Shown: positions 11,714 through 25,651 of the stretch, in pieces
Layout of the letters: every line of letters begins with the position of its first letter
Position numbering within the stretch: position 1 is the first letter of the stretch
Assembly: GCA_020061125.1 (NCBI GenBank)
Contig: JAGUYV010000034.1
Span: 1 to 28,156, forward strand
Length of the DNA: 28,156 nt
From: a bacterium
GTDB lineage: Bacteria; UBP15; UBA6099; DSWB01
Direction of reading: 5' to 3'
Made by a program: the position numbers and the translations under genes
Notes under the pieces: generated by a model
The model's database searches: none
What the model was told of the DNA's origin: nothing
The model's input: only the letters and a program-made list of their open reading frames with translations

Positions 11714-12025
11714 TCACGCGTTGTTTCGTGCTTGCTGGATGACTTCATGCCGAGATTCAATAACCGACTGGAACGCACCGCTGATGCCGTGCCAGTCCAC
11801 GATATCCACGCGAAAAGGAAGCTCGGATTCTTCAAATGCGCTTGTCAGAGCGGCTTGCGCCGCAAGAGAGAGCTTTTCGCGATCCACGATGGCGATGTCA
11901 ATGTCTGAATATTTCGCGGCTCCGCCCGTTACCCTTGATCCGAACACGCGCACTTCCGCATCGGGCACATGCTGCTTAAGAATGCGCAATATCAATGCGC
12001 GATGATCCGGTTGCAGGTCAATCAT
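11714..12025 (-). CDS. MNT-type nucleotidyltransferase (antitoxin of HEPN/MNT pair)
   Basis: The 103-residue protein is a minimal nucleotidyltransferase. It has FGSRVTGG (Gly29-Ser30), SDIDIAI giving Asp41 and Asp43, and a third acidic residue Asp74 in RVDIVDW, so the catalytic triad is intact. Proteins of this type (HI0073/MntA) pair with HEPN proteins; the Shewanella MntA antitoxin transfers AMP onto a tyrosine of its HEPN toxin. The start overlaps the HEPN stop by 8 nt, so the two are coupled, with the HEPN gene first. It is convergent with the LprI-like gene. Confidence 0.9.
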   Translation of the reverse strand: MIDLQPDHRALILRILKQHVPDAEVRVFGSRVTGGAAKYSDIDIAIVDREKLSLAAQAALTSAFEESELPFRVDIVDWHGISGAFQSVIESRHEVIQQARNNA

Positions 12026-12446
12026 TTCCCGGCCCGTTCAGTTCCTTGAGTTTTTGAATCAGAAAGCCCGCATCCGTAATAAACCCCGGCAGAGCGCCTA
12101 GCACCTCTTCGGCCTTGTCCTCGTCGTAGGTGTGGCTTGTAAGATTCCTCGCCTGCCGGTACAGAAAAAAAGCCTGAACATCGGGTATCAGCCCCGATTC
12201 TCCGGCATGGCGCATGATGTCCCGAAACGACATTTCATTATATTCCCGCGGGGTTGCGCTCATTGCCATGAGCTGCCTTTTGATGAATTTGCACGCCAGT
12301 TCGTATGTGTATTCAAATCGTTGCACCACGGAATCCCGAAGGGCGTCCGCCATGTCCGTATCATCCGGCCCAACGGATTCCATGAGCGCAACAGCTTTTT
12401 TAAGACTTGCATACGCTTTTTCAAGACTGTCTATAATCAGCGCCAT
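12018..12446 (-). CDS. HEPN-domain protein (HI0074/HepT-like toxin)
   Basis: The 142-residue alpha-helical protein belongs to the HI0074-type nucleotidyltransferase substrate-binding family. It has FEYTYELACKFIKRQL at about 44-59 and FFLYRQARNLTSHTYDED at about 93-110. The latter contains RX4HXY (Arg100, His105, Tyr107), the motif of HEPN RNases, in which Tyr is the AMPylation target in the Shewanella HepT/MntA system. The expected role is a tRNA- or mRNA-cleaving toxin silenced by the MNT protein. The ATG at 12446 has GGGAGGA 4-5 nt upstream, which rules out the longer start at 12500. A TATAAT (minus strand, 12510-12505) about 60 nt upstream may be its -10. Confidence 0.88.
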   Translation of the reverse strand: MALIIDSLEKAYASLKKAVALMESVGPDDTDMADALRDSVVQRFEYTYELACKFIKRQLMAMSATPREYNEMSFRDIMRHAGESGLIPDVQAFFLYRQARNLTSHTYDEDKAEEVLGALPGFITDAGFLIQKLKELNGPGND

Positions 12447-12571
12447 TATTCCTCCCGTACCCTCCATGCGCACGGCCCAACCGCTTTGGCTGTCCGCCAT
12501 CAGAATTATATATCAATCCCGAGCCGTGCCGCGCGCTTTGTCTATTCCCGAACGCTTTTTCTCCGCGCATC

Positions 12572-12600
12572 TTGACATCCAGGCAACGGCGTGAGATAAT
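12572..12600 (+). promoter_or_regulatory. Strong sigma70-type promoter of the methyltransferase operon
   Basis: A perfect TTGACA (12572-12577), an optimal 17-nt spacer and GATAAT (12595-12600) lie 39 nt before the TetR start codon. This is the best promoter match in the window. The last base of the -10 is the first base of the palindrome at 12600-12617. Confidence 0.75.
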
Positions 12601-12617
12601 GACTGACTAATCAGTCA
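12600..12617 (+). promoter_or_regulatory. Palindromic operator, likely bound by the TetR-family regulator
   Basis: TGACTGA-CTAA-TCAGTCA is a perfect 7-bp inverted repeat around 4 bp. It covers the end of the -10 box and the predicted transcription start, where a bound repressor would block RNA polymerase. Its form is close to the Bacillus FadR box (TGAATGAMTANTCATTCA), which is bound by a TetR-family fatty-acid regulator. Autoregulation is inferred from position. Confidence 0.75.
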
Positions 12618-12638
12618 AATTGTGGCAGGAGCGGTTTC

Positions 12639-13301
12639 ATGGCTGTAACAAACAAGGAGAACGGCGCGGAAACCCGAACTGCGGGCAACGGCCGCGCCGC
12701 GCTGCGAAAGGCCGAAACCCGCGCCCGCATCAAGGCCGCGGCCCGCGCCGTGTTCGCGGAAAAGGGCTACGAAAAGGCCAATGTATCGGACATCGTGCGC
12801 GCCATCGGCATGGCCCAGGGCACCTTTTATTACCATTTCCAGGACAAGAAATCCATTCTCATGGAAATGCTCAATGAGTATTTTGATCAGTTCCGCGCGG
12901 TCATGAGCGACTGGATGCAGTCCGAGGACGCGGCGCCGGATGTGACTTACATATTCGCCCGGCGCGTGGCCGTGCTGCTTTATGAAAACAAAGATCTCAC
13001 GCACATCATCATGCAGGAAGCGCACAATGCCGACGAAGATGTGCGCCGCCTGATCCATGGGTTCAACCGCTTTTTCTATGAGCAGGTGCGCTCGGGCCTG
13101 GACCTGGGCGTGGCACTGGGGCTGGTGCGGCCCATGGACACGCGCCTGGCGGCCGTGGCCCTGGTGGGCATGATTCGCGAAGTGGTCGCGAACAGAACCC
13201 GGAGCGGAGAAGACATTGACATCGAGCACCTGATCCGGGAGCTTGCGGAATTGCAGAATCACGGCATCCGGTTGAGGCCGGGCGCCGGGAACAATTTTTG
13301 A
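12639..13301 (+). CDS. TetR-family transcriptional regulator
   Basis: The 220-residue protein has an N-terminal HTH at about 25-72, with the TetR signature ARAVFAEKGYEKANVSDIVRA followed by IGMAQGTFYYHFQDKKSILMEML. A basic 24-residue extension precedes it. The C-terminal ligand-binding domain (about 85-210) is helical, with ALVGMIREVVANR, resembling the C-terminal domains of FadR/PfmR-type acyl-CoA-sensing repressors, though the ligand cannot be told from sequence. AGGAG at 12627-12631 precedes the ATG. It is the first gene of the operon and only 12 nt before the next one. With the operator overlapping the promoter, it probably represses the whole operon, itself included, until a pathway metabolite binds. 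Confidence 0.93.
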   Translation: MAVTNKENGAETRTAGNGRAALRKAETRARIKAAARAVFAEKGYEKANVSDIVRAIGMAQGTFYYHFQDKKSILMEMLNEYFDQFRAVMSDWMQSEDAAPDVTYIFARRVAVLLYENKDLTHIIMQEAHNADEDVRRLIHGFNRFFYEQVRSGLDLGVALGLVRPMDTRLAAVALVGMIREVVANRTRSGEDIDIEHLIRELAELQNHGIRLRPGAGNNF

Positions 13302-13313
13302 GGAGGATCTCTC

Positions 13314-14951
13314 ATGCCATCCCTTGAGGAACGATTGAGATCGCGCCTGACGACCGTGGCCGCGAAAGCCGTCGAGGAGATGACCACGAACACCTTTTCG
13401 GGGTATCTGGTGAAGAAACTCATCGTGCCCGGCTCTTTCCGCAACACCGCGGACGGCGAAGGTGCGTTCAACGGGTTCCAGATCCAGGTGAAGAACAAGA
13501 TCGGCGTGGCCACCATCGTGGGCTGCACGCCGGTCAAGATTGACGGCGAAGTCTTTCCCGTGGAGCAGATCCGCATCGAGCGCAAGGGCCAGGTCCTGCG
13601 CGCGGCGGACCTTTCCGAAAGCCTGCCCATCGCCACGGGGTTCGGCGACGAGATGATGATCGTCATCGAGGACGATCAGGGACTGGAAGCGGGCAGGCAC
13701 ACGGCCCAGCTCGGACTCAAGATGGTGGGCCTTGGCATCGTGCAGGTGACATTCGACGAGACCTTGAGCGGGCCGGGCTGCGAAAAACGCACGCGCAAAG
13801 CCGCGCCCGCCACGGACGGCGCGGACGATTTTTCGGATGTCATGCGCCGCACCGTGGAAATCGCCGCACAGCACATCGGCGCCAAAACGCTTGCGGATTG
13901 CGCAAAGGTTGTGCGCGGCATCGTGGTGGATTTCAGCGACATGGCCGCGCAGTACAGTGTGCGCGTATCCGAAGACGGCGGCGCGGAATTCGTGCCCGGC
14001 GCCATCGGCGGCGAGAAAATTCTCACCATCAAAACCACGCGCGCCGCGTTCCACAACATGGCCCACAACCGCCTCAACCCCGGCATCGCCTACGCGCGCG
14101 GCGACATCCGCCTCGAAGGCATCCCCATTCTGAAACTGCGCGGCATGGACCCCGTGATCACCGGCATTTTCCACGGGTATCGCGCGGCGTCCGAGGGCAT
14201 AGAGTTCGACGCCGCGGCAGCGGCCGGGCAGCACGGGGTCATCGAGGAGATCTTCGGTTTCCTGGTCATGTTTCTGGACGAAGCGCTCAAGGCGCTGGAC
14301 AAGGCGCTGGGCGTGTTCGGAGTCAAATACTTCTACGAGAAGTCGCTGAACCGCATTGAATTCGTGTGGTCCATACTGGATCGCGAAGTGCGCCGTGTCG
14401 TGGGATTCGGCAAGGGCGGAGCGGCCGGCGCAAGCGCGCCTGCCGGTGCGGTGGATGAAACCGGGCAAGCGCCTGCGCCCGCGGAAAAGCCGGCCGAAAC
14501 CCTGCGCGACAGGCTCAAGAGCCGCATCTCCACGGCCATTGAAACCGCAGTGGGCGACGCCGCCAAAACCGCGGTCTCCGGCTATCTGGTCAAGCGCCTG
14601 GTGGCGCCCGGAAGTTTTCGCAACTTCAGCGAAAACGGCCAGGACCAGGGCTTCGAGGTCAAGCTTAAGAACAAGCTCGGCACCGCCACGGTCATCGGGT
14701 TCAGCGACATCATGGTGGACGGCGAAGTGTACGCCCTGGATCGGATCACCCTGCACAAGGAACGCAAAGTCCTGCCCGCGTCCGACATTTCCGAAAGCAA
14801 GCCGCTGCTGGTGTCGTTCGGGGACGAACTGCTGGTGCGCGTGTCCCGGCCCGGCGGCATGACGCCCGGCAAACACCGCGTGACCATGGGCGTGCGCATG
14901 GTTGGCGTGGGCGATGTGGATGTGGATTACGAAGAAAAGCTCACCCAGTAA
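13314..14951 (+). CDS. Two CGDB/DUF6379-like repeats flanking an SCP2-like domain
   Basis: The 545-residue protein has an internal duplication. Residues about 3-152 and 395-544 align throughout; for example GYLVKKLIVPGSFRN pairs with GYLVKRLVAPGSFRN, and GLKMVGLGIVQVTFDE with GVRMVGVGDVDVDYEE. Each repeat looks like the DUF6379 / C-glycoside deglycosidase beta-subunit domain (NGFQIQVKNKIG..., VDGEVY..., beta-rich). Between them, residues about 172-290 resemble an SCP2 sterol-carrier-like lipid-binding domain (MAAQYSVRVSEDGGAEFVPG, NMAHNRLNPGIAYARGDIRL), followed by a helical linker and a Pro/Ala hinge (about 365-395). There is no signal peptide, so it is cytoplasmic. As the first structural gene it may bind or present the substrate to the methyltransferases (inference). 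GAGGAGG precedes the ATG. The domain names are from memory of the families and need profile checking. Confidence 0.7.
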   Translation: MPSLEERLRSRLTTVAAKAVEEMTTNTFSGYLVKKLIVPGSFRNTADGEGAFNGFQIQVKNKIGVATIVGCTPVKIDGEVFPVEQIRIERKGQVLRAADLSESLPIATGFGDEMMIVIEDDQGLEAGRHTAQLGLKMVGLGIVQVTFDETLSGPGCEKRTRKAAPATDGADDFSDVMRRTVEIAAQHIGAKTLADCAKVVRGIVVDFSDMAAQYSVRVSEDGGAEFVPGAIGGEKILTIKTTRAAFHNMAHNRLNPGIAYARGDIRLEGIPILKLRGMDPVITGIFHGYRAASEGIEFDAAAAAGQHGVIEEIFGFLVMFLDEALKALDKALGVFGVKYFYEKSLNRIEFVWSILDREVRRVVGFGKGGAAGASAPAGAVDETGQAPAPAEKPAETLRDRLKSRISTAIETAVGDAAKTAVSGYLVKRLVAPGSFRNFSENGQDQGFEVKLKNKLGTATVIGFSDIMVDGEVYALDRITLHKERKVLPASDISESKPLLVSFGDELLVRVSRPGGMTPGKHRVTMGVRMVGVGDVDVDYEEKLTQ

Positions 14952-14966
14952 AGGAGGCGTGCGCTC

Positions 14967-16382
14967 ATGATATTTCGAAAGCTGAAAGTGCTGAACGACG
15001 ACGAAATGCTCAAGATCGTGGAAGGCGCGTTCCGGATCCTGCAAACCACGGGCTGCCGGTTCGAGGACCCCGCATGCATGGACGAACTCGAAGCCATCGG
15101 GTGCTCCGTGGACCGCGATTCCCTTGTGGTAAAGTTCCCGGAGGACGCGATCTTCGACGCCCTGGAATCGGTGCCCTCGGTCACGCCCCCTGACAATCTG
15201 CCCAAGGCGCGCGTGGCCAGCGCCAACAAGGGCTTCCTGCTCGACTACCACACGCGCAAAATGCGCCGCGGCAAGACCGAAGACGCGCGCAAGATCATCA
15301 CCCTGTGCAACAATCTCACCAACATCACCCTGGCCTCGGCCGGCGTGGTGCAGGACGATGTGCACAACGACGCGGTCGAGGTGTTCAACACGGCGCTGCT
15401 GCTCAAGTATTCCGAAAAGCTGTTCAACCAGTGGGTGTACAACACGGACAATGTGCCGTTCGTGCTGGAGATGGGCGAGATTGTCACGGGCGGCGCCGAG
15501 GAGTTGAAGCAATCGAGCCTGCTGAACTACATGCTGAACCCCATCGCGCCGCTCCGGTTCCCGCCAACGCAATTGAAAATGACGCGCCTGTACGCACAGC
15601 GGGATCTGCCCCTGTCCGTGGCGTCCATGACCCAGACCGGGAGCACCGCGCCCGCCACCATGGCCGGCGCGCTCGTGGTGTGCACGGCCGAACTGCTCGC
15701 GGGCCTCGCGTGGATCCATTCCCTGAACAGCAAAAGCCCGGTGGGGCTGGGCGCGCTCACACAGGTGTGCGACCTGCGCACCGGAGCGCAGCTCTACGCG
15801 GGTCCGGAGCAGGCCATCATGTTCCTGGGCATGCACCAGATCATCCGCTATCTCGGCTACACAAGCGGCAACACATCGTTCGAGACCGATTCCTGCGACT
15901 TCGATTTTCAGAACGGATGGGAGAAGGCCCTGTCCGGAGTGTTATGCTGGGCCGCGGGGTTCGACATGTTCGGCCAGGCCGGGTTCCTCATGGACGGGTT
16001 CTCCATGGAGCAACTGGTTCTGGACAACGAGGCTATGGGCATGCTGCAGCGCGTGGGCCAGGGCATGGTGGTGGACGAGGATGCGCTGGCGTTTGATACG
16101 ATCAAGGCCGTGGGGCCAGGCGGCAACTTCCTGGGCGAACGGCACACCATGCTTCACGCGCGCGATTTCTGGCTGCCATCGGTGTTCCCGCGTGTGAGCT
16201 TCGAGCAGTGGCAGAAAGAGGGCGCGCGCCACATCATTGATGTGGCGCACGACAAAGTGGAGCAAATTCTCGCGAACAGCGCCCTGGAACTACAGGTGAG
16301 CGAAGACCAGGCCAGGGCCATTGACGATGTGGTGCGCCGCCGCCTCGCGCAGGTGGGCGGTTCCTGGGAAGGGGTGATCTGA
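14967..16382 (+). CDS. MttB-superfamily corrinoid methyltransferase 1 (non-pyrrolysine)
   Basis: The 471-residue protein belongs to the trimethylamine methyltransferase (MttB/COG5598) family of TIM-barrel enzymes, which move a methyl group from a methylated amine or quaternary amine to a corrinoid protein. Supporting segments are VEGAFRILQTTGCRFEDPAC, LLKYSEKLFNQWVYNT, SMTQTGSTAPATMAGALVV, LNSKSPVGLGALTQVCDLRTG and the C-terminal GNFLGERHTMLHARDFWLPSVF. Length is near the family norm. There is no in-frame TAG, so it lacks the pyrrolysine of true MttB and resembles the MtgB/MtpB/MtcB group that act on betaines or carnitine. AAGGAGG lies 15 nt downstream of the previous stop. The substrate is unknown. 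It is clearly paralogous to the next gene but quite divergent. Confidence 0.9.
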   Translation: MIFRKLKVLNDDEMLKIVEGAFRILQTTGCRFEDPACMDELEAIGCSVDRDSLVVKFPEDAIFDALESVPSVTPPDNLPKARVASANKGFLLDYHTRKMRRGKTEDARKIITLCNNLTNITLASAGVVQDDVHNDAVEVFNTALLLKYSEKLFNQWVYNTDNVPFVLEMGEIVTGGAEELKQSSLLNYMLNPIAPLRFPPTQLKMTRLYAQRDLPLSVASMTQTGSTAPATMAGALVVCTAELLAGLAWIHSLNSKSPVGLGALTQVCDLRTGAQLYAGPEQAIMFLGMHQIIRYLGYTSGNTSFETDSCDFDFQNGWEKALSGVLCWAAGFDMFGQAGFLMDGFSMEQLVLDNEAMGMLQRVGQGMVVDEDALAFDTIKAVGPGGNFLGERHTMLHARDFWLPSVFPRVSFEQWQKEGARHIIDVAHDKVEQILANSALELQVSEDQARAIDDVVRRRLAQVGGSWEGVI

Positions 16383-17786
16383 ATGATTTTCAACCAGCTC
16401 GACATTCTGTCCGAAAATGAAATCGAACGCATTCTGGACACCAGTTACCGGATTCTTGAAGAGGTGGGCCTGCGGTTCGAGTGGGCGCCTGCGCTCGACA
16501 CGCTCGAAGCGCGCGGGTGCATGGTGGATCGCCAGGCCATGCATGTGCGCATGCCGCGCAAACTTGTCGAGGAAGCCGTGGCGGGCATGACGCCCCTGGC
16601 GCGGCCCCAGGATTATCCCAAAATCTTCTGGGCGCCCTGGATCGGCATGAACCTCATCGAGTTCGAAACCAAAACCCGCCGTCCCGGCCGCCTCGACGAT
16701 TGCCGCAACATTGTAAACCTCGTCAACAATCTCGAAAACATTTCCGTCTCCTCAACAGGCGTGGTGCCCCAGGATGTGCCCATCGAGATCGCCGATGTGT
16801 TCATGGCCGAACTGCTCTTCAAGTATTCGGAAAAGATTTTCACCACATGGACATACACCATCGAGACCGGGCGCGACCTGGTGGAGATGGCGCTGGCCGT
16901 GACCGGAGGCGAAGAGGAGTTTCGCAATTCCAAGGTGCTGAACTATCTGGCGGAGCCTGTCACGCCCCTCAAGATGCCGCGGCACATGCTTGAGATCATG
17001 ACCCTGTATGCCCAATACGATCAGCCCATCAACATGGGGTCCATGGTGCAGGTCGGCACCACCGGTCCGGCCACACTGGCCGGGTCCGTGGCCCTGCAGA
17101 TGGCCGAGAACATGGCCGGGCTTGCGTACCTGTACTGCCTCGGTTCCAAATCGCCCGTGGCGCTGGGCGGCCCCATGCAGACCAGCGATATGCGCACGGG
17201 CCGCTGCCTGTATGCCGCACCCGAGCTGTCACTGATTCATCTGGCCCTGGTCGCGTGCGCGCACCACCTTGGCTACATGTCGGGCTGCACCTCGGGACTG
17301 TGCGACGCCAACACCATGGATTTCCAGTGCGGATGGGAGCGCGGCCTGTCCGGCGTGCTGCTCTGGGCCGCAGGCTCGGAAAGCATCGGCATGCGCGGCG
17401 AAATCGGCGGAGGCGAGGGCTTCAGCATGGAGTCCCTGGTGGTGGAAAACGAAATGGGCGGCATGCTGCGCCGCATCAGCGAGGGCATCATCGTGAACGA
17501 CGAGACCCTGGCGCTCGACATCATCGAGAAAGTCGGCATCGGCGGCAACTACCTGTACGAAACCCACAGCGCGCAGCACGCACACGATTTCTGGCAGCCC
17601 GAGGTGTTCAGCCGCAAGCAGTACGCCCAGTTCTGGGAGAATTACAGGCACATCGAGGAGCGCGCGCATGAAAAGGTCGCGCGCATCCTTGACACCAGCG
17701 AACTCTCGCTCCAGGTGGACGAGGATGTGGCCCGCGAGATAGACCGCATCGTCAAAGCGCGCGTGGACAAGCTCAAATCCGCATGA
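16383..17786 (+). CDS. MttB-superfamily corrinoid methyltransferase 2 (non-pyrrolysine)
   Basis: The 467-residue protein is a second MttB homologue. It starts on the base after the stop of the first, with its ribosome site (GAAGGGG) inside that gene. Shared landmarks are LFKYSEKIFTTWTYT, SMVQVGTTGPATLAGSVAL, LGSKSPVALGGPMQTSDMRTG, CGWERGLSGVLLWAAG and GGNYLYETHSAQHAHDFWQP. No in-frame TAG is present. Relative to its partner it differs at several places expected near the active site: CTSGLCDANTMDFQCGWERG here against NTSFETDSCDFDFQNGWEKA there, plus a GEIGGGEGFSMES loop. The two could form a hetero-oligomer or act on two substrates or successive methyl groups (inference). It is followed after 12 nt by the corrinoid protein. 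Confidence 0.9.
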   Translation: MIFNQLDILSENEIERILDTSYRILEEVGLRFEWAPALDTLEARGCMVDRQAMHVRMPRKLVEEAVAGMTPLARPQDYPKIFWAPWIGMNLIEFETKTRRPGRLDDCRNIVNLVNNLENISVSSTGVVPQDVPIEIADVFMAELLFKYSEKIFTTWTYTIETGRDLVEMALAVTGGEEEFRNSKVLNYLAEPVTPLKMPRHMLEIMTLYAQYDQPINMGSMVQVGTTGPATLAGSVALQMAENMAGLAYLYCLGSKSPVALGGPMQTSDMRTGRCLYAAPELSLIHLALVACAHHLGYMSGCTSGLCDANTMDFQCGWERGLSGVLLWAAGSESIGMRGEIGGGEGFSMESLVVENEMGGMLRRISEGIIVNDETLALDIIEKVGIGGNYLYETHSAQHAHDFWQPEVFSRKQYAQFWENYRHIEERAHEKVARILDTSELSLQVDEDVAREIDRIVKARVDKLKSA

Positions 17787-17798
17787 GGAGGCCGCGTC

Positions 17799-18434
17799 AT
17801 GGCTGACTTTGAAGCGTTGAAGAATTCCGTGATTGACATGGACCCGGACCGGGCCGTGGAACTGACGCAGTCCGCGGTGGCTGAAGGCGTTGCGCCCCTG
17901 GACATCGTGAACACGGCGCTGATTCCCGGCATTGATGTCGTGGGCCAGAAGTTCCGCGACTTCGAGTACTTCCTGCCCGAGGTGATCATGGCGGCCAAGG
18001 CGTTCAAGGCCGCGTTCGAGGTGATCCTGCCGCAGTTGAACGAGGCCGGTTACGAGCCTAAGGGCAGGGTGCTGATCGGCACCGTGTCCGGCGACAACCA
18101 CGACATCGGCAAGAACATTGTGATCGCCCTGCTGCAGGGCAGCGGATACGAGGTGCATGACGCGGGCGTGGATGTGTCCGCGCAGCGGTTCGTGGAACTG
18201 GTGCGGGACATCAAGCCGCATGTGGTGGGCATGTCCGCGCTGCTCACCACAACCATGGCCGTGATGCGGGACACCATCGCGGAACTGTCCGGCGCGGGGC
18301 TGCGCGATTCCGTGAAGGTCATCGTGGGCGGCTCGTGCGTGAACCCCGAGTTCGCGCAGAAGATCGGCGCGGACGGTTACGGCGAGGATGCGTCCGAAGC
18401 GGTCAAACTCGTGGATCGCCTGCTCGCGGTGTGA
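17799..18434 (+). CDS. Corrinoid (B12-binding) methyl-carrier protein, MtbC/MetH type
   Basis: The 211-residue protein has the two-part structure of methyl-carrying corrinoid proteins. There is an N-terminal helical cap (about 1-88: ALIPGIDVVGQKF, FEYFLPEVIMAAKAFKAAF) and a C-terminal Rossmann-like B12 domain (about 89-211). The lower-ligand motif is intact: GDNHDIGKNIV with His101 replacing dimethylbenzimidazole, followed by GMSALLTTTM and a late glycine motif (VIVGGSCVN). It should carry the methyl group as methyl-Co(III) between the MttB proteins and the methyl acceptor. GAGGAGG precedes the ATG. It lies directly between the methyltransferases and the homocysteine methyltransferase, which matches its expected place in the pathway. 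No reductive activase (RamA-type) is in the window. Confidence 0.95.
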   Translation: MADFEALKNSVIDMDPDRAVELTQSAVAEGVAPLDIVNTALIPGIDVVGQKFRDFEYFLPEVIMAAKAFKAAFEVILPQLNEAGYEPKGRVLIGTVSGDNHDIGKNIVIALLQGSGYEVHDAGVDVSAQRFVELVRDIKPHVVGMSALLTTTMAVMRDTIAELSGAGLRDSVKVIVGGSCVNPEFAQKIGADGYGEDASEAVKLVDRLLAV

Positions 18435-18487
18435 CCGCCTAATGCGGTTCGGCTTGAGAGCATATTGCGCCACAGGGAGGCATTGCC

Positions 18488-19363
18488 ATGGATTTGCTTT
18501 CACTCCTCAAACAAAAGAAAGTTCTGATTCTCGATGGGGCCACGGGCACGCAGCTTGCGCAGCGCGGCGCGCCCGCGGGCGGCCGCGCAAACATCGAAGC
18601 CCCGGACAAGGTCACGGCCGTGCACAGGGCCTACATTGACGCCGGATCCGACTGCGTGATCACCAACTCCTTTTGCATGAACCGCATTTACATGAAGGCG
18701 AACAGCTTTTCCGTAAGCGTTTCGGACATGAACGCGCGCGCCGCGGAACTGGCGCGAAAAGCCGCAGGAGACCGCGCCCTTGTGCTTGGAGGATTCGGAC
18801 CCACCGGGGAATTGCTCAAGCCCGTGGGCAACATCACCGAAGCGGAGTGCGAGGATGCTTTCGCGGAACAGGCGCGCGCCCTGGCGGACGCGGGAGTGGA
18901 CGCGTTCATCATCGAGACCATGATGGACATGAACGAGGCGGCGTGCGCGGTGCGCGCGTGCAAGCGGAACTTCACCCTGCCCGTGATCGCATCCATGACA
19001 TACGCCACCACGCGCGACGGCGGCCGCACCACCATGGGACACCGCGCAGAGGACTGCGCGCGCATCCTCGCCGCCGCAGGCGCGGACATTTTGTCCTGCA
19101 ACTGCGGCGACCTCGACCCCGCGGAGACCGCCATCATTGTTTCATCCTATAAAAACGCATCGGATCTGCCTGTGCTGGTGGAGCCGAATGCGGGCAAGCC
19201 TGTATTGGACGATAACAACAACGCCGTGTATTCCATGCCGCCCGCGGAATTCGCCCAGGGCGTTCTGGAGTGCATCCGCGCGGGTGCGGCCCTGGCCGGC
19301 GGGTGCTGCGGCACCACGCCTGATCACATCCGCGCCCTGGCTGAACTTGCCGCGTCCCTTTGA
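18488..19363 (+). CDS. Stand-alone homocysteine S-methyltransferase domain protein
   Basis: The 291-residue protein corresponds to the N-terminal homocysteine-binding barrel of MetH, or to MmuM/BHMT. It has ILDGATGTQLAQRG at about 14-27, IETMMDMNEA, and the three zinc-thiolate cysteines that hold and activate homocysteine: Cys206 in NCG and Cys273/Cys274 in GGCCGTTP. It has no methyl-THF, B12 or activation domain of its own, so it must receive its methyl group from a partner; the corrinoid protein encoded 53 nt upstream is the obvious one. The product would be methionine. Similar stand-alone proteins can also use S-methylmethionine or betaine. AGGGAGG lies just upstream of the ATG. The somewhat longer gap before it contains only a weak 5-bp hairpin. 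Confidence 0.92.
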   Translation: MDLLSLLKQKKVLILDGATGTQLAQRGAPAGGRANIEAPDKVTAVHRAYIDAGSDCVITNSFCMNRIYMKANSFSVSVSDMNARAAELARKAAGDRALVLGGFGPTGELLKPVGNITEAECEDAFAEQARALADAGVDAFIIETMMDMNEAACAVRACKRNFTLPVIASMTYATTRDGGRTTMGHRAEDCARILAAAGADILSCNCGDLDPAETAIIVSSYKNASDLPVLVEPNAGKPVLDDNNNAVYSMPPAEFAQGVLECIRAGAALAGGCCGTTPDHIRALAELAASL

Positions 19364-19385
19364 AAACCGCCGGAGGATTGCTCCC

Positions 19386-20576
19386 ATGACCCAGAACAAG
19401 CATTTCGGAACCCGTGTCGTCGGAGGGTGGAAGATGCCGCATCCTTCAACGAGGCCCATCAATCCGCCGCTGTACCAGAGCACATCCTACATCTACGACG
19501 ATCTCGATGCGTACATGGAAGGCGGATCCGAGGCCATGCTCGGACAGGGCGGCCGTTTTTTCTATTCGCGGACCGGCAATCCCACCACGGCCATGTTCGA
19601 GCACAAGATCGCGGAACTCGAGGGCGCTGCGCGCGCCGTGGCATTCGCCAGCGGAATGGCCGCCATCAGCACGGCCCTCCTTGGCCTGCTCAAAACCGGT
19701 GACCGCATCGTGGCACACAGCAAAATGTACAGCGCGTCCGACACCCTGTTCGGCGAGTATCTGCCCCAGTGGGGCATCAAGGTGGATCTTGCGGATCTCA
19801 CGGACCCGCGCCAGTTGAAAAAGGCGCTTTCGCGCCCGGCCAAAGTTCTGTTCATCGAGACGCCCGCCAATCCTCTGGTGGAGATCATTGACATTCCCGA
19901 GGCCGCGAAACTGGCCAAGGCCGCGGGCGCAACCGTGGTGGTGGACAGCACCTGGGCAGGTCCGTATCTCATGAAGCCCCTGGAGCTTGGAGCGGACCTT
20001 GTGGCCGCGAGTTCCACGAAATACATCAGTGGGCATGACGACGCCCTGGGCGGCTATGTGGCCGGCCCCGCGGATCTGGTGGCGCAGGTGGACAACTACA
20101 TGCTCGTGCTGGGCGGGGCCATGAGCCCCACGCACGCGCTCTACACCATGCGCGGCCTGCGCACCCTGCACATCCGCATGGACCGCCACGGCGCCAACGC
20201 GCTCGAAGTCGCACAATTCCTCGAATCGCATCCCAAAATCAAGAAGGTCTGGTATCCCGGACTCAAGAGCCACCCCCAGCACCATGTCGCGAAAAAAATC
20301 ATGACCGGGTGGTCCGGCATGATCGCGTTCTGGGTTCGCGGCGGCGCGGAACAGGCCCGGGCGCTGCTGAACAGCCTCGAAGTGTGCAATGTGGCCGTAA
20401 GCCTGGGCGACGCCTGCACCCTTATCGAACACCCCGCCACCATGACCCACATCACGGTTGACAAAGAGCGCCGGGACCGGCTCGGCATCACGGACAACAT
20501 GATCCGCCTGTCCGTGGGCCTCGAAGATGCGCGCGACCTGGTCCGCGACCTGGACCGGGCGCTCATGCGCATCTGA
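19386..20576 (+). CDS. Cys/Met-metabolism PLP-dependent enzyme (gamma-lyase/synthase type)
   Basis: The 396-residue protein is a trans-sulfuration-type fold-I PLP enzyme. It has YSRTGNPTTAMFEHKIAELEGA (Tyr60-Ser-Arg binding PLP phosphate), AFASGMAAISTALLGLLKTGD, ETPANPL, and the PLP lysine Lys212 in SSTKYISGH. The C-terminus has VAVSLGDACTLIEHP and LSVGLEDARDL. The family includes cystathionine gamma-lyase/synthase, methionine gamma-lyase and O-acylhomoserine sulfhydrylases, which sequence alone does not separate well. The segment where methionine gamma-lyases usually carry a catalytic Cys (after the LYG motif) reads KMYSASDT here, so a classical methionine gamma-lyase is not certain. The start is the ATG at 19386 after GGAGGA; the open frame further upstream is antisense noise. 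It is the last gene of the operon. Confidence 0.93.
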   Translation: MTQNKHFGTRVVGGWKMPHPSTRPINPPLYQSTSYIYDDLDAYMEGGSEAMLGQGGRFFYSRTGNPTTAMFEHKIAELEGAARAVAFASGMAAISTALLGLLKTGDRIVAHSKMYSASDTLFGEYLPQWGIKVDLADLTDPRQLKKALSRPAKVLFIETPANPLVEIIDIPEAAKLAKAAGATVVVDSTWAGPYLMKPLELGADLVAASSTKYISGHDDALGGYVAGPADLVAQVDNYMLVLGGAMSPTHALYTMRGLRTLHIRMDRHGANALEVAQFLESHPKIKKVWYPGLKSHPQHHVAKKIMTGWSGMIAFWVRGGAEQARALLNSLEVCNVAVSLGDACTLIEHPATMTHITVDKERRDRLGITDNMIRLSVGLEDARDLVRDLDRALMRI

Positions 20577-20593
20577 CTCTGTCCGCAGGCTCC

Positions 20594-20642
20594 GACGGAA
20601 ATCCGGGTTTCGATATCCGTCCCGTTTCCGTCAATCCTTTTT
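20594..20642 (+). terminator. Rho-independent terminator of the methyltransferase operon
   Basis: GACGGAAA (20594-20601) and CGGG (20604-20607) pair with CCCGTTTCCGTC (20621-20632). This gives a 12-bp stem with a 2-nt bulge and a 13-nt loop. Five T residues follow at 20638-20642. It begins 18 nt after the last stop of the operon and overlaps the 3' end of the convergent GH98-like gene. Confidence 0.65.
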
Positions 20643-22430
20643 CCAGTCTATTTCGATATCCATGGTCCCGTTGTGATCGAGGATAAGTTTCAGCTCACCC
20701 GGTTCCCATTCGGATTTCAGCCGGCCCAGTTTGCCGGCAACCAAGCGCACTTCGGGGCGCTCTCCTTGCAGTCCGAGCAGTTCAATCACGGTCGTGCGTA
20801 TTGTGGAGTCCGTGGGGTTTGAAATGTATTTGTTCAACACATAATCGCAGTATTGTTCGTTGTTGAGGTATTGGTTGTCCCAGACATCGGCGTCGCTGTC
20901 TATCCGGTAGTTGCTGATGTGCAGGGAAACGCCGCCTGGTCTCTGGCGGAGAATTCCGAAGGTGTGCGGGGGCAGGCTTCCGGCCGCCCGCAGATCCTGG
21001 CGGTCCGAGAGCTGGAAGTCGAATCCGGCTGTTGTGTTCGAGTTTTCATTCGGGTTCGCGAAAAGCCATGCGGCGCCGTTGTTCACAAACCATGCACCGC
21101 CCGATCCCGCGGCAGGATAGAGATTGTCAAAAAAGATTTTTTTGGCCTCGGGATTCACCAGGTTGTCCTTGTAAAACTCGTCGTCTATCACAGTGGGGAA
21201 CAATGCGTTTGCGGACTCATCGGCGAGCATGGGTATGATGGGGATGAAATAGTAGCGGCCCGTGGAAGGCAGCCATTCATAGTGAGTGCTGTTCTCCGGG
21301 CCGTAAAGAGCGGTGAACAGGTGGTCCTCGCGAAGTGTGCGGGGCGCGGCCTGGGAAGGGCGGTATGCGGCTTTGATTCTGGCACGCACCGCATCGCGAT
21401 CAGGGATGAGCTTGTGCTGAATTATCTGGCGGATGAGCGGCAGAATGACATTGTCAAAAGCCGGGGTTGTCCTGGAGCCGTCGCAGGACGAATAGCCCTG
21501 GAAAAAAGCCTCCAGAGAAAACAGGGATGCGCCGCCGGATGCGGCGACAAGCCACTCGATGCCGTATAGCGCGTCCGGATACGAGAACACGGATTTCCAG
21601 GGCTGGGCGCTCCGGTGAGGGGCCATGGATGGTTTGTAGAGCTGCTCGAATCCTCCTTCCCACCACAACCAGCCTTCGCTGTGAACGCCCCAGGCGGCGG
21701 TTGTGCCGGTCACCCAGAAACCCAGGACTGCCGCGTCCGATGTGAAGCGGCGGCCGCTCCCATTGTGCTTGTGCGTTAGAATGACATGCGCCCCATATTT
21801 GCGTATGGCTTCGAAAAGCGCGGGTTCGGCCCCGGCTTTGACGAACACATGGGGGGCCTTGGGAAACGGCGCGTCCCAGCTCATGTCCTGCCAGATGAAG
21901 TACCCGCCGTGTGTTGCGGCCACTTCCATGTATCTCGTCATCTTTTCCATGAACGCGGCGTCAAGGTTGGCGCCGGTCAATCCTCCCGTGGCGCTGATTT
22001 CGGAAATGTTCAGCCCGATCACATTCGGGTACTTGTCGAAAAGTCCGGCCCAGTATTCCATGGGAGTGTCGTTCGTGCTGTTGAATCCTTCCGTTTCGAT
22101 GATTGCTGGCGCGTTGAGTTTTTGCGCCATGTCCAGAACAGACTCAATCCACGCGCGCGTTTCCGGGGAATCCGATTTCATGGGGTTCACATGCACGCCG
22201 AAATACGGCTTCACATCTTCCGGAAGATTTTTCCAGAAGTTTTCCAGTTGGGACGGGTTCGCTCCATTGTAGACGCTGCTGTAAACAAAAAGGGGATTCT
22301 CGTTGTTGATTGGGCGGCGCAGAATAGTGTGCGCCTGTTGTGCCGATGCGGTGAACGAAAACAAGAGCAGGACGGCCGCTGTCGCAAGACTTGTGAGAAA
22401 TCGCGCCCCTCTTGTGCAGAATCCGGTCAT
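20631..22430 (-). CDS. Secreted glycoside hydrolase, GH98-like
   Basis: The 599-residue protein has a signal peptide (hydrophobic about 14-27, ASA-QQ). The mature part begins HTILRRPINNENPLFVYSSV. It continues with a barrel containing LPEDVKPYFGVHVNP, WIESVLDMAQKLNAPAIIETEGF, KYPNVIGLNISEIS and GGYFIWQDMSWDAP, a layout matching GH98, a family of endo-beta-galactosidases acting on glycans such as blood-group antigens. Glu residues in the IETEG and NISE strands are candidate acidic catalytic residues, not assigned with certainty. The C-terminal part (about 430-599) is beta-rich, resembling the GH98 C-terminal domain. There is no recognisable separate carbohydrate-binding module. The start at 22430 has AGGAGAG 6-7 nt upstream; the in-frame extension to 22538 has no support. 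It is convergent with the methyltransferase operon. Confidence 0.75.
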   Translation of the reverse strand: MTGFCTRGARFLTSLATAAVLLLFSFTASAQQAHTILRRPINNENPLFVYSSVYNGANPSQLENFWKNLPEDVKPYFGVHVNPMKSDSPETRAWIESVLDMAQKLNAPAIIETEGFNSTNDTPMEYWAGLFDKYPNVIGLNISEISATGGLTGANLDAAFMEKMTRYMEVAATHGGYFIWQDMSWDAPFPKAPHVFVKAGAEPALFEAIRKYGAHVILTHKHNGSGRRFTSDAAVLGFWVTGTTAAWGVHSEGWLWWEGGFEQLYKPSMAPHRSAQPWKSVFSYPDALYGIEWLVAASGGASLFSLEAFFQGYSSCDGSRTTPAFDNVILPLIRQIIQHKLIPDRDAVRARIKAAYRPSQAAPRTLREDHLFTALYGPENSTHYEWLPSTGRYYFIPIIPMLADESANALFPTVIDDEFYKDNLVNPEAKKIFFDNLYPAAGSGGAWFVNNGAAWLFANPNENSNTTAGFDFQLSDRQDLRAAGSLPPHTFGILRQRPGGVSLHISNYRIDSDADVWDNQYLNNEQYCDYVLNKYISNPTDSTIRTTVIELLGLQGERPEVRLVAGKLGRLKSEWEPGELKLILDHNGTMDIEIDWKKD

Positions 22431-22460
22431 TCTTTGCTCTCCTCTCATCAAATGAAGACA

Positions 22461-22469
22461 AATATACCA
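22461..22469 (-). promoter_or_regulatory. Extended -10 element for the GH98-like gene
   Basis: On the minus strand, TGGTATATT (22469-22461) fits an extended -10 in an AT-rich stretch about 30 nt before the ATG. No good -35 is seen. Confidence 0.35.
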
Positions 22470-22539
22470 TATTTTACGAATAATGCTATCGCCGTTTCGA
22501 GCGCGGCGGGCTATGCTATGCAGGACGGAGCGGCGCATC

Positions 22540-23603: not shown

Positions 23604-24224
23604 TCAGAAGGAGAAATCTTTGGGCAGCTTGCTTTTGGGGGTGCCCAGGGGCACCCAGCTCAAGTCCGTGATGGTGAAGGTGGGATTCTTTTTCTTGAAG
23701 ATGGGAACCACGCGCATGCCGATCTCCGGCTCTCCGTATGAGAGATAGCCCATGAGAATGGTGTCAATGTTCGGGTGCGTGAATTCCACATTGATGAACT
23801 TGATGGGAATTTCAAGAGTGTTGAAAGCGCCGGTGCGTTCGGTGACCATGAATGAGTGAACCGTGCCGGTCTCCTGGGCCACTTTGGTGATGTCCACGGG
23901 CTTGTTTCGGGTGAGGCAGTCCGCGCAGCACGAGCGGAAGGGGATCCAGATGGTGCCGGGGAATTCGCAGTCCGGGTTCACGCACTGCGCGCCCATGAGC
24001 TTGCCCTTGGGCACGCTCTCGAAGAAGATGGCTTCTCCGCCGTAGGAGTGGATGTGCGTAAGCTCACGCGGGTTGGTGACGCCGCACAGCTTGTTCTTCT
24101 CGTTGTAGATGGGCGTGTTCGGTATGATGCGGTGAAAGTTGCCGCTGACCTTGTACTGGCCATTGACGACTTTGACCCTGGGTTCCACGAACTTTTTGGA
24201 TGCGGTCTTTTTGGTGGCGGCCAT
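23604..24224 (-). CDS. DUF35 zinc-ribbon/OB-fold protein, partner of the thiolase
   Basis: The 206-residue protein has a rubredoxin-like zinc ribbon with Cys81-X4-Cys86 and Cys100-X2-Cys103 (CVNPDC...CADC), followed by an OB-fold (about 110-190: ETGTVHSFMVTERTG, GYLSYGEPEIGMRVVPIF). DUF35 proteins form complexes with thiolase-fold enzymes, for example archaeal HMG-CoA synthase/thiolase, BbsA-BbsB, and the Ltp2-ChsH2 steroid side-chain aldolase, where they help bind the acyl-CoA. A lysine-rich N-terminal extension (about 1-20) is additional. AGGAGG lies 9 nt before the ATG. The start is 2 nt after the thiolase stop, so the two are certainly cotranscribed. The longer frame running into the thiolase gene is not used. 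Confidence 0.9.
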   Translation of the reverse strand: MAATKKTASKKFVEPRVKVVNGQYKVSGNFHRIIPNTPIYNEKNKLCGVTNPRELTHIHSYGGEAIFFESVPKGKLMGAQCVNPDCEFPGTIWIPFRSCCADCLTRNKPVDITKVAQETGTVHSFMVTERTGAFNTLEIPIKFINVEFTHPNIDTILMGYLSYGEPEIGMRVVPIFKKKNPTFTITDLSWVPLGTPKSKLPKDFSF

Positions 24225-24226
24225 GA

Positions 24227-25651
24227 TTACTTGCCTCCTTTCAGCCTGGCTTCGGGGCGTTCCACAATGGTGGCGGTGACATGCGAGCCGACGCCGGCGT
24301 GGCTGATGGCCAGAGCGCGCTTGGCGCCCTTGATGGTGAGGTCCTGCCAGTTGCGGGGTTTCTTCTTGCCGAAGGAACGCCAGCGCGCTTCGGAGCCGTG
24401 GATGTCCGCGTGTTTCTTCCAAAGGTGCAGGCCGCATTCGCAGACCTGCATGAGGCCGGTTGCGCCCACGGCGTGCATGCAGCCGATGAGGCCGCCGCTC
24501 GGGTTGGCGGGCAGCTTGCCGGGCTTTTTGGTCTTGGGGTTGATTACATAACAGTCGCCGGATTCCACATAGGTGCGGCCTTCGCCGTAGGGGCGGATGC
24601 CCACATCTTCGTAGCTCTGGATGTCGCTGATGGTGAAGGCGTCGTGCAGTTCCACGAAATCGAGGTCCTTTGTGGGATCCTTGACGCCGGCCATGCCGTA
24701 GGCGTAGTGGCAGGCCATGCGGGCCGCGAGGAACCCGGAGAAGCCGGGGTAGCGGTCTCCGCCCGGGAAGCGCTTGCCCAGATCTGCGTACTGTTCCTTG
24801 GTTTCATGGGGCAGGAGCGGGATTTGCATGTCGCGGCGGTCGGCCACGCGCAGGGAGTGAGACCCGGCGCCCACATGCACCAGCAGCGGATCGTCCGTGA
24901 GCTTGTATGCGGTCTTCTTGTCCGCCACGATGCAGCAGGCCGAGCCTACGCTCATGAGGCAGCAGTCCAGCGCACGCAGGGGATAGGCCACGATGGGCGA
25001 TTCCAGAACATCCTTGACCGTGATTTTCATCGGCCCCTGCGCGAAGGGGTTGTGGATGGCGTAGCCGCGGTTCTTGACCGCGATTTTGGCCATGGTTTCG
25101 CGGAAGGAAGGCTCGCTCTTGCCGAAGATTTGCCAGTAGCGCTGGGCCATGACCGCGTAGTAGCCGGTGTAGATATGGCCCATGGGGGTTTCCCAGTCTT
25201 TGTCCGCGGCGCATGCGATGTAGTTGTTGCCCTCGTCCGTGGGCACTTCGTCCATGCGCTCCCAGCCCAGGGCCAGGGTGCAGTCCGAGTAACCCGAGGC
25301 CACGGCCTTGACCGCCTCCCACAGGGCCGAGCCGCCGGTGGCGCCGCCGGTCTTGATGCCGACATTGCCCAGCGGGTCCAGGCCCAGGCGGTCGTGGATC
25401 ACGGCCTCGCCCAGAAGCTGGTCGCCGAAGTGGTCGGCGAAATAGCCGTAGTAGCAGGTGTGGATGAATTTCTTGAGTTTGGCCGGGGTGGTCCCGATGA
25501 GTTCCGCGGCCATTGTGAGCGCATCAATCGCGAGCTCCTCCTGGCGCTTTTCCGGGAACGCGCGCCGAAACTCGGATTCGCCCGCGGTCACGAGATACAC
25601 ATCCCGCGACATCTTGGGGATCTTGAGCTGCTCTTTGCTGAAAGTGATCAT
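24227..25651 (-). CDS. Thiolase-fold protein (SCP2-thiolase-like) lacking the nucleophilic Cys
   Basis: The 474-residue protein has the thiolase fold: KTGGATGGSAL at 100-110, HDAF at 336-339, NPSGGLIGCMHAVGATG at 383-399 and HAGVGSHVTATIVER near the C-terminus. In thiolases the first motif normally reads like EAACASGGAAL, with Cys as the acyl-accepting nucleophile; here that position is Gly103. His336 of HDAF and His393 of HAVGATG are kept. Such a pattern, with a DUF35 partner, recalls the Ltp2-type retro-aldolases of steroid side-chain breakdown rather than a true thiolase, so the reaction is open. AAAGGAG precedes ATG 25651. An extra insert (about 270-305) is rich in charged residues. Confidence 0.9.
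   Translation of the reverse strand: MITFSKEQLKIPKMSRDVYLVTAGESEFRRAFPEKRQEELAIDALTMAAELIGTTPAKLKKFIHTCYYGYFADHFGDQLLGEAVIHDRLGLDPLGNVGIKTGGATGGSALWEAVKAVASGYSDCTLALGWERMDEVPTDEGNNYIACAADKDWETPMGHIYTGYYAVMAQRYWQIFGKSEPSFRETMAKIAVKNRGYAIHNPFAQGPMKITVKDVLESPIVAYPLRALDCCLMSVGSACCIVADKKTAYKLTDDPLLVHVGAGSHSLRVADRRDMQIPLLPHETKEQYADLGKRFPGGDRYPGFSGFLAARMACHYAYGMAGVKDPTKDLDFVELHDAFTISDIQSYEDVGIRPYGEGRTYVESGDCYVINPKTKKPGKLPANPSGGLIGCMHAVGATGLMQVCECGLHLWKKHADIHGSEARWRSFGKKKPRNWQDLTIKGAKRALAISHAGVGSHVTATIVERPEARLKGGK

Follow-up and report, generated by a model that had tools for sequence, protein, structure and literature searches.

The window, which is the whole 28,156-nucleotide stretch of DNA that we analysed, encodes a 545-residue protein (13314–14951, plus strand, stop codon included) in which two homologous domains of the C-glycoside deglycosidase beta subunit (CGDB) type flank a middle domain with a predicted SCP2 fold. 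The gene lies directly upstream of a pair of MttB-family methyltransferase genes. From the domain identities, the association with MttB and the lipid-binding fold in the middle, the best reading is that this CGDB-SCP2-CGDB protein presents a hydrophobic methylated compound as substrate, and it would then be a dedicated, non-catalytic accessory subunit of a demethylating system that depends on a corrinoid. In our view the protein probably works with this MttB pair; there is about an even chance that its SCP2 domain carries the methyl substrate, and the whole model, in which the SCP2 domain holds the hydrophobic substrate and the flanks dock to the MttB barrels, stands a little below even. The genome from which the window comes is a fragmented MAG, 79% complete, belonging to a small order of candidate phylum UBP15.

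The protein was characterized from the open reading frame call together with Pfam, AlphaFold, and Foldseek. Its residues 3–152 and 396–544 are 40% identical (133 bits, E 4e-45), and a chance origin of this internal repeat is ruled out because the copies gave a Smith-Waterman score of 337, whereas 500 shuffles of the C-terminal copy never scored above 55. The preliminary description had proposed two homologous copies around a separate middle domain, and this is what we observe, with the C-terminal copy beginning at residue 396 rather than 395. Each repeat unit of about 150 residues consists of a helix and then a beta-sandwich. In the N-terminal unit, helix 3–24 stands in front of the CGDB/HMG-CoA_red_N-type domain of residues 28–152 (13395–13769, plus strand), and in the C-terminal unit, helix 397–426 stands in front of the corresponding domain of residues 421–545 (14574–14948, plus strand). 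Between the two are the SCP2-like domain (about residues 171–293; 13824–14192, plus strand) and two conserved amphipathic helices (residues 310–362; 14241–14399, plus strand), which have low pLDDT in the predicted model. We discount a 1073-residue antisense open reading frame (12615–15836, minus strand), which is a shadow of the coding strand with its high G+C content.

A Pfam profile search confirmed the CGDB type of both flanks, since the protein matched PF19906 in two stretches with a total of 83.4 bits (cut-off 27.6), and either copy by itself scored 45 bits. The same search gave a match that the preliminary description had missed, to HMG-CoA_red_N (PF25653; 66.1 bits, cut-off 27), again in two stretches that are the two copies. 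Because both copies are above both cut-offs, the sequence spaces of the two Pfam families overlap in this case. The HMG-CoA reductase catalytic domain (PF00368) was absent from the 545-residue protein in the Pfam scan. A full-length AlphaFold model built from six orthologues has a mean pLDDT of 57, with the flanks fairly confident (mostly 62–86) and the middle weaker. When this model was searched with Foldseek, the best matches were the DgpB/DfgB/CarB subunits of C-glycoside deglycosidases (7bvr_B, E 2.8e-8, prob 1.00), and single-chain CGDs of about 433 residues matched it as well (8un2).

The preliminary description had also regarded CGDB proteins as usually small partners of sugar-isomerase-like subunits, a view that is not upheld by the fusions to URO-D proteins and HMG-CoA reductase or by the single-chain CGDs. 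A sugar-isomerase-like alpha subunit was not found in the operon, either here or in the operons of relatives, and since the flanking domain occurs in these other settings, this is no strong oddity. We regard the flanking domain as a module of general use that is appended to different proteins. A sensitive profile detected it in 14 of 386 genomes, and fusions with URO-D proteins are present in UBP15 and in a second small phylum. It forms the N terminus of standalone URO-D proteins at L016 8150–9760 (−), L017 8740–10263 (+), L044 1806–3509 (+), and L137 5494–7050 (−), where no corrinoid gene is evident nearby. Four genomes encode an HMG-CoA reductase whose N-terminal part is a CGDB-like domain (HMG-CoA_red_N), namely L132 in G221, L133 in G080, L134 in G089, and L135 in G181; the L133 reductase was identified by reading the sequence, and the remaining three by scanning. 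In both L132 and L133, a wax ester synthase/DGAT gene lies near the fusion.

The SCP2-like character of the middle domain was borne out by its predicted fold, but its sequence score stays under the Pfam cut-off (PF02036, E 0.055–0.2, 12–14 bits compared with 21.3). PF02036 was weakly matched in five of the six orthologues, all below the curated cut-off, with a best E of 0.013. When the middle domain was modelled alone, the closest fold was that of the Thermus SCP2 protein 2cx7 (Z 12.3, 2.5 Å over 117 residues), with Z 9.0 for UbiJ and Z 9–11 for alkylsulfatase C-terminal domains. The 27 Foldseek matches of this model at E ≤ 0.001 were all SCP2 proteins or alkylsulfatase SCP2 domains. Both structure models rest on six sequences and have modest confidence (mean pLDDT 57 and 62). 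We regard the predicted SCP2 fold as well supported.

The gene had been described as the head of its operon, and it is instead the second gene, after a TetR-family regulator. The operon order is TetR, CGDB-SCP2-CGDB, MttB1, MttB2, corrinoid protein, homocysteine methyltransferase, and Cys/Met PLP enzyme, in a compact arrangement with short intergenic gaps (15 bp from the CGDB-SCP2-CGDB gene to MttB1) and purine-rich ribosome-binding-like sites before most starts. A sigma-70-type promoter, TTGACA-17-GATAAT (12572–12600, plus strand; 11/12), is the sole promoter-like match in 12400–20900. Overlapping its −10/start region is the palindrome TGACTGACTAATCAGTCA (12600–12617), the presumed TetR operator, and a TTGACA-type box also stands ahead of the operator in five other genomes, as read from their sequences. 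The palindrome core GACTGACTNNTCAGTC is found in five genomes at one place per genome, always at this promoter, with a degenerate form upstream of the operon in G005, and 0 occurrences are expected in shuffles of the window. One site per genome, always here, fits a local self-regulating TetR repressor. The regulator itself (12639–13301, plus strand) has FadR as its closest NCBIfam model, under cut-off, and an orthologue heads the operon in G002–G006. The palindrome may resemble the operators of acyl-CoA-sensing TetR regulators; our literature search found no published FadR operator resembling it. A tRNA-Arg call inside the TetR gene is probably a false positive; Rfam finds no tRNA.

Both methyltransferases, MttB1 (14967–16382, plus strand; PF06253, 243 bits) and MttB2 (16383–17786, plus strand; PF06253, 236 bits), belong to the non-pyrrolysine MttB family. 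The pyrrolysine position is occupied in MttB1 by Glu306, a Glu that is conserved in the MttB1 alignment, and in MttB2 by Leu, as in MtgB. An identity as the pyrrolysine MttB that acts on trimethylamine was rejected, because the frames are open without TAG and the score is far under the trimeth_pyl cut-off. The corrinoid protein (17799–18434, plus strand) has B12-binding_2 and B12-binding domain matches, and a RACo-type corrinoid activase (PF14574) is present in all seven genomes of the order. The single-domain homocysteine S-methyltransferase (18488–19363, plus strand; PF02574, 218 bits) has NCG and GGCC zinc-type cysteines; its gene is inside the operon in the window's genome (G000) and in G005, and PF02574 was not found anywhere in the four genomes of genus g3 (G002, G003, G004, and G006).

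The PLP enzyme (19386–20576, plus strand) is kept wherever the end of the operon is visible, at about 74–77% identity, with 77% in G002–G004. It is nearest to methionine gamma-lyase, but that identity is unproven, since the score is 402 bits compared with a cut-off of 550 and Ala occupies the alignment column that we take to be the position of the active-site cysteine, so that the enzyme apparently does not have this residue. The top PDB entry in the alignment also has Ala there and is probably a mutant. The enzyme may instead make homocysteine. Two genomes of another family (G315 and G030) have, directly after an MttB homologue, a Cys/Met PLP gene 35–36% identical to that of the window (L094 6445–9524 and L095 6396–9684), which suggests a recurrent MttB-PLP link. 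MttB lies beside a PLP homologue or, once, a homocysteine methyltransferase in other lineages (L094, L095, and L096), and such an association is not unique to the UBP15 operon.

Several other genes surround the operon. The genes of an MNT-type nucleotidyltransferase and a substrate-binding-like partner share a few bases at 11714–12500 (−) of the window, as is typical of MNT/HEPN-like pairs, and a glycoside hydrolase family 98 protein at 20631–22538 (−) is convergent with the operon. At 23604–25651 (−) there is a thiolase-like protein (near PRK06365) and then an overlapping protein with a DUF35/OB-fold-partner-like cysteine motif, for which Pfam gave no family match. In genus g3, a DUF2505 gene adjoins the TetR end of the operon in divergent orientation (L012 12398–12904 (+), also L014 and L015).

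The association with MttB, on which the preliminary description had relied, recurs throughout the order. Orthologues of the CGDB-SCP2-CGDB protein are found in five of the six other genomes at 55–58% identity, each adjoining MttB1 and with the same gene order where contigs allow. MttB occurs in the order solely as the MttB1/MttB2 pair, and in all six genomes that bear it the CGDB-SCP2-CGDB gene is upstream. The seventh genome, G001, which is 95% complete, has neither MttB nor the CGDB-SCP2-CGDB protein. The operon order is fixed in all genomes checked, and the neighbours outside the operon differ. Among the 386 genomes, these six are the only ones with the full architecture; a scan of contigs gave no match with a single-protein query and only the five UBP15 relatives with an alignment query. 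Outside the order, the flanking domain never occurs together with MttB in these 386 genomes; 35 such genomes have MttB homologues and no CGDB-type domain, and a local flanking-domain profile found no CGDB-like gene beside the MttB homologues that other lineages encode.

The two CGDB copies and the two MttBs have diverged in parallel. Across genera, the N-terminal copies are 54–58% identical, the C-terminal copies 60–62%, and N-terminal versus C-terminal copies 42–52%. MttB1 orthologues are likewise about 71% and MttB2 orthologues about 74% identical, with 40–44% between MttB1 and MttB2. Because orthologues are closer than paralogues in both cases, both pairs are old and have been separately maintained. 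Compared with partial reference sequences, MttB1/2 are 28–30% identical to MtgB and 26–30% identical to MtgB and MttB taken together. The parallel between CGDB copies and MttB paralogues leads us to guess at a pairing of one CGDB domain with one MttB, and we consider it possible, though doubtful, that each CGDB caps one MttB.

In the mechanism we propose, the SCP2 domain would hold a methylated compound of hydrophobic character, such as a lipid, a quinone-like molecule, or an acylated molecule with an N- or O-methyl group, and the two beta-sandwich flanks would be docking or lid domains, one per MttB barrel, much as CGDB sits over its alpha subunit. MttB1 and MttB2 would methylate the corrinoid protein that they share, from which the methyl groups would probably pass to homocysteine to give methionine in two of the three operon-bearing genera (G000 and G005), and the PLP enzyme would handle homocysteine or methionine. 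We count in favor of this model the coupled occurrence with MttB, the parallel old paralogue pairs, the SCP2 fold, the RACo activase, and the FadR-like TetR. For docking in particular, URO-D proteins are a TIM-barrel family and the flanking domain is fused to them; it is also found on HMG-CoA reductase, whose fold is not a TIM barrel, so a lid over a barrel is not its only use. Docking is further favored because CGDB contacts the substrate and has a lid that moves toward the active site of the partner (PMC12141560) and because MttB itself has a TIM-barrel fold and assembles from dimers (PMC9842639). Counting against the model, a capping domain could hinder the corrinoid protein, which must also reach the MttB barrel. 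The MttB-family substrates known to us are also small and water-soluble, which counts against a lipid carrier. The model is further weakened by the SCP2 sequence score under the Pfam cut-off and by the modest confidence of the structure models.

Most SCP2 proteins are soluble and carry ligands, and this argues against a second reading, in which the SCP2 domain and helices 310–362 place the MttB/corrinoid complex at a membrane or lipid body and a small methylated amine or ether serves as substrate without needing a carrier. Conservation of the amphipathic helices would agree with such a scaffold, as would the CGDB-type domains on HMG-CoA reductase near wax ester synthase/DGAT genes and the adsorption of the UbiJ SCP2 domain to membranes in simulations (PMC9499169). 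On the other hand, the CGDB copies have remained distinct from each other, which suggests specific partners, and other MttB systems have been described without an adaptor of this kind, so we think a membrane adaptor unlikely. It is improbable that the protein is simply an HMG-CoA_red_N-type protein for lipid handling, co-transcribed with the methyltransferases but not in contact with them. HMG-CoA_red_N is matched above cut-off and this domain occurs on HMG-CoA reductase, but the gene is 15 bp from MttB1, the order is fixed despite differing outer neighbours, and both are jointly absent in G001.

URO-D proteins, to which the flanking domain is fused, include corrinoid O-demethylases, and this would fit an O-demethylase for plant-type aromatics in which a methoxylated glycoside or phenolic is bound by CGDB at its polar or aromatic portion and by SCP2 at its hydrophobic portion. 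CGDB does bind flavonoid C-glycosides (PMC12141560), but the flanks are 15–18% identical to solved CGDB structures, so ligand residues cannot be transferred, and the conserved operon contains no glycosidase or aromatic-pathway gene. Characterized MttB members, moreover, act mainly on methylated amines (PMC8604678), and we consider this reading improbable.

Returning to the accessory subunit with a hydrophobic substrate, our literature search found no relevant work joining sterol carrier protein, corrinoid, and methyltransferase, and none with DUF6379. We raise, tentatively, the possibility that this is the first corrinoid demethylating system for water-insoluble substrates, in which a lipid-carrier subunit would serve two MttBs through barrel-docking domains and the methyl group would end in methionine. 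To our knowledge, most MttB-family members are without a known substrate, and a lipid-carrier partner would give a handle on the substrate through a co-purified ligand. If the model is true, a fixed partner of this kind would widen anaerobic demethylation to hydrophobic molecules and would show that CGDB-type domains are general add-ons of methyltransferase-like and lipid enzymes rather than parts of glycosidases.

Each part of the protein has counterparts in known systems. Both flanks have the fold and sequence family of the C-glycoside deglycosidase beta subunits DgpB, DfgB, and CarB (PF19906), but here two copies per chain surround an SCP2 domain beside MttB rather than beside a sugar-isomerase-like alpha subunit. 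Both are also homologous, at 21–28% identity, to the N-terminal domain of HMG-CoA reductase (PF25653), here without the reductase domain. The middle domain shares its predicted fold with Thermus SCP2 (2cx7), UbiJ, and alkylsulfatase C-terminal domains; unlike these, it is under the SCP2 Pfam cut-off and set between two CGDB domains. The nearest logic is that of UbiJ: its SCP2 domain has been proposed to serve the Ubi enzymes by holding ubiquinone intermediates by their isoprenoid tail (PMC9499169). The MtgB-MtgC glycine betaine system and the marine MtgBCD/MtgE split methionine synthase likewise have a non-pyrrolysine MttB together with a corrinoid protein and are linked to homocysteine methylation (PMC12478193). 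Unlike those systems, the UBP15 operon has two MttBs per corrinoid protein, an extra CGDB-SCP2-CGDB subunit and, in two genera, the homocysteine enzyme within the operon itself.
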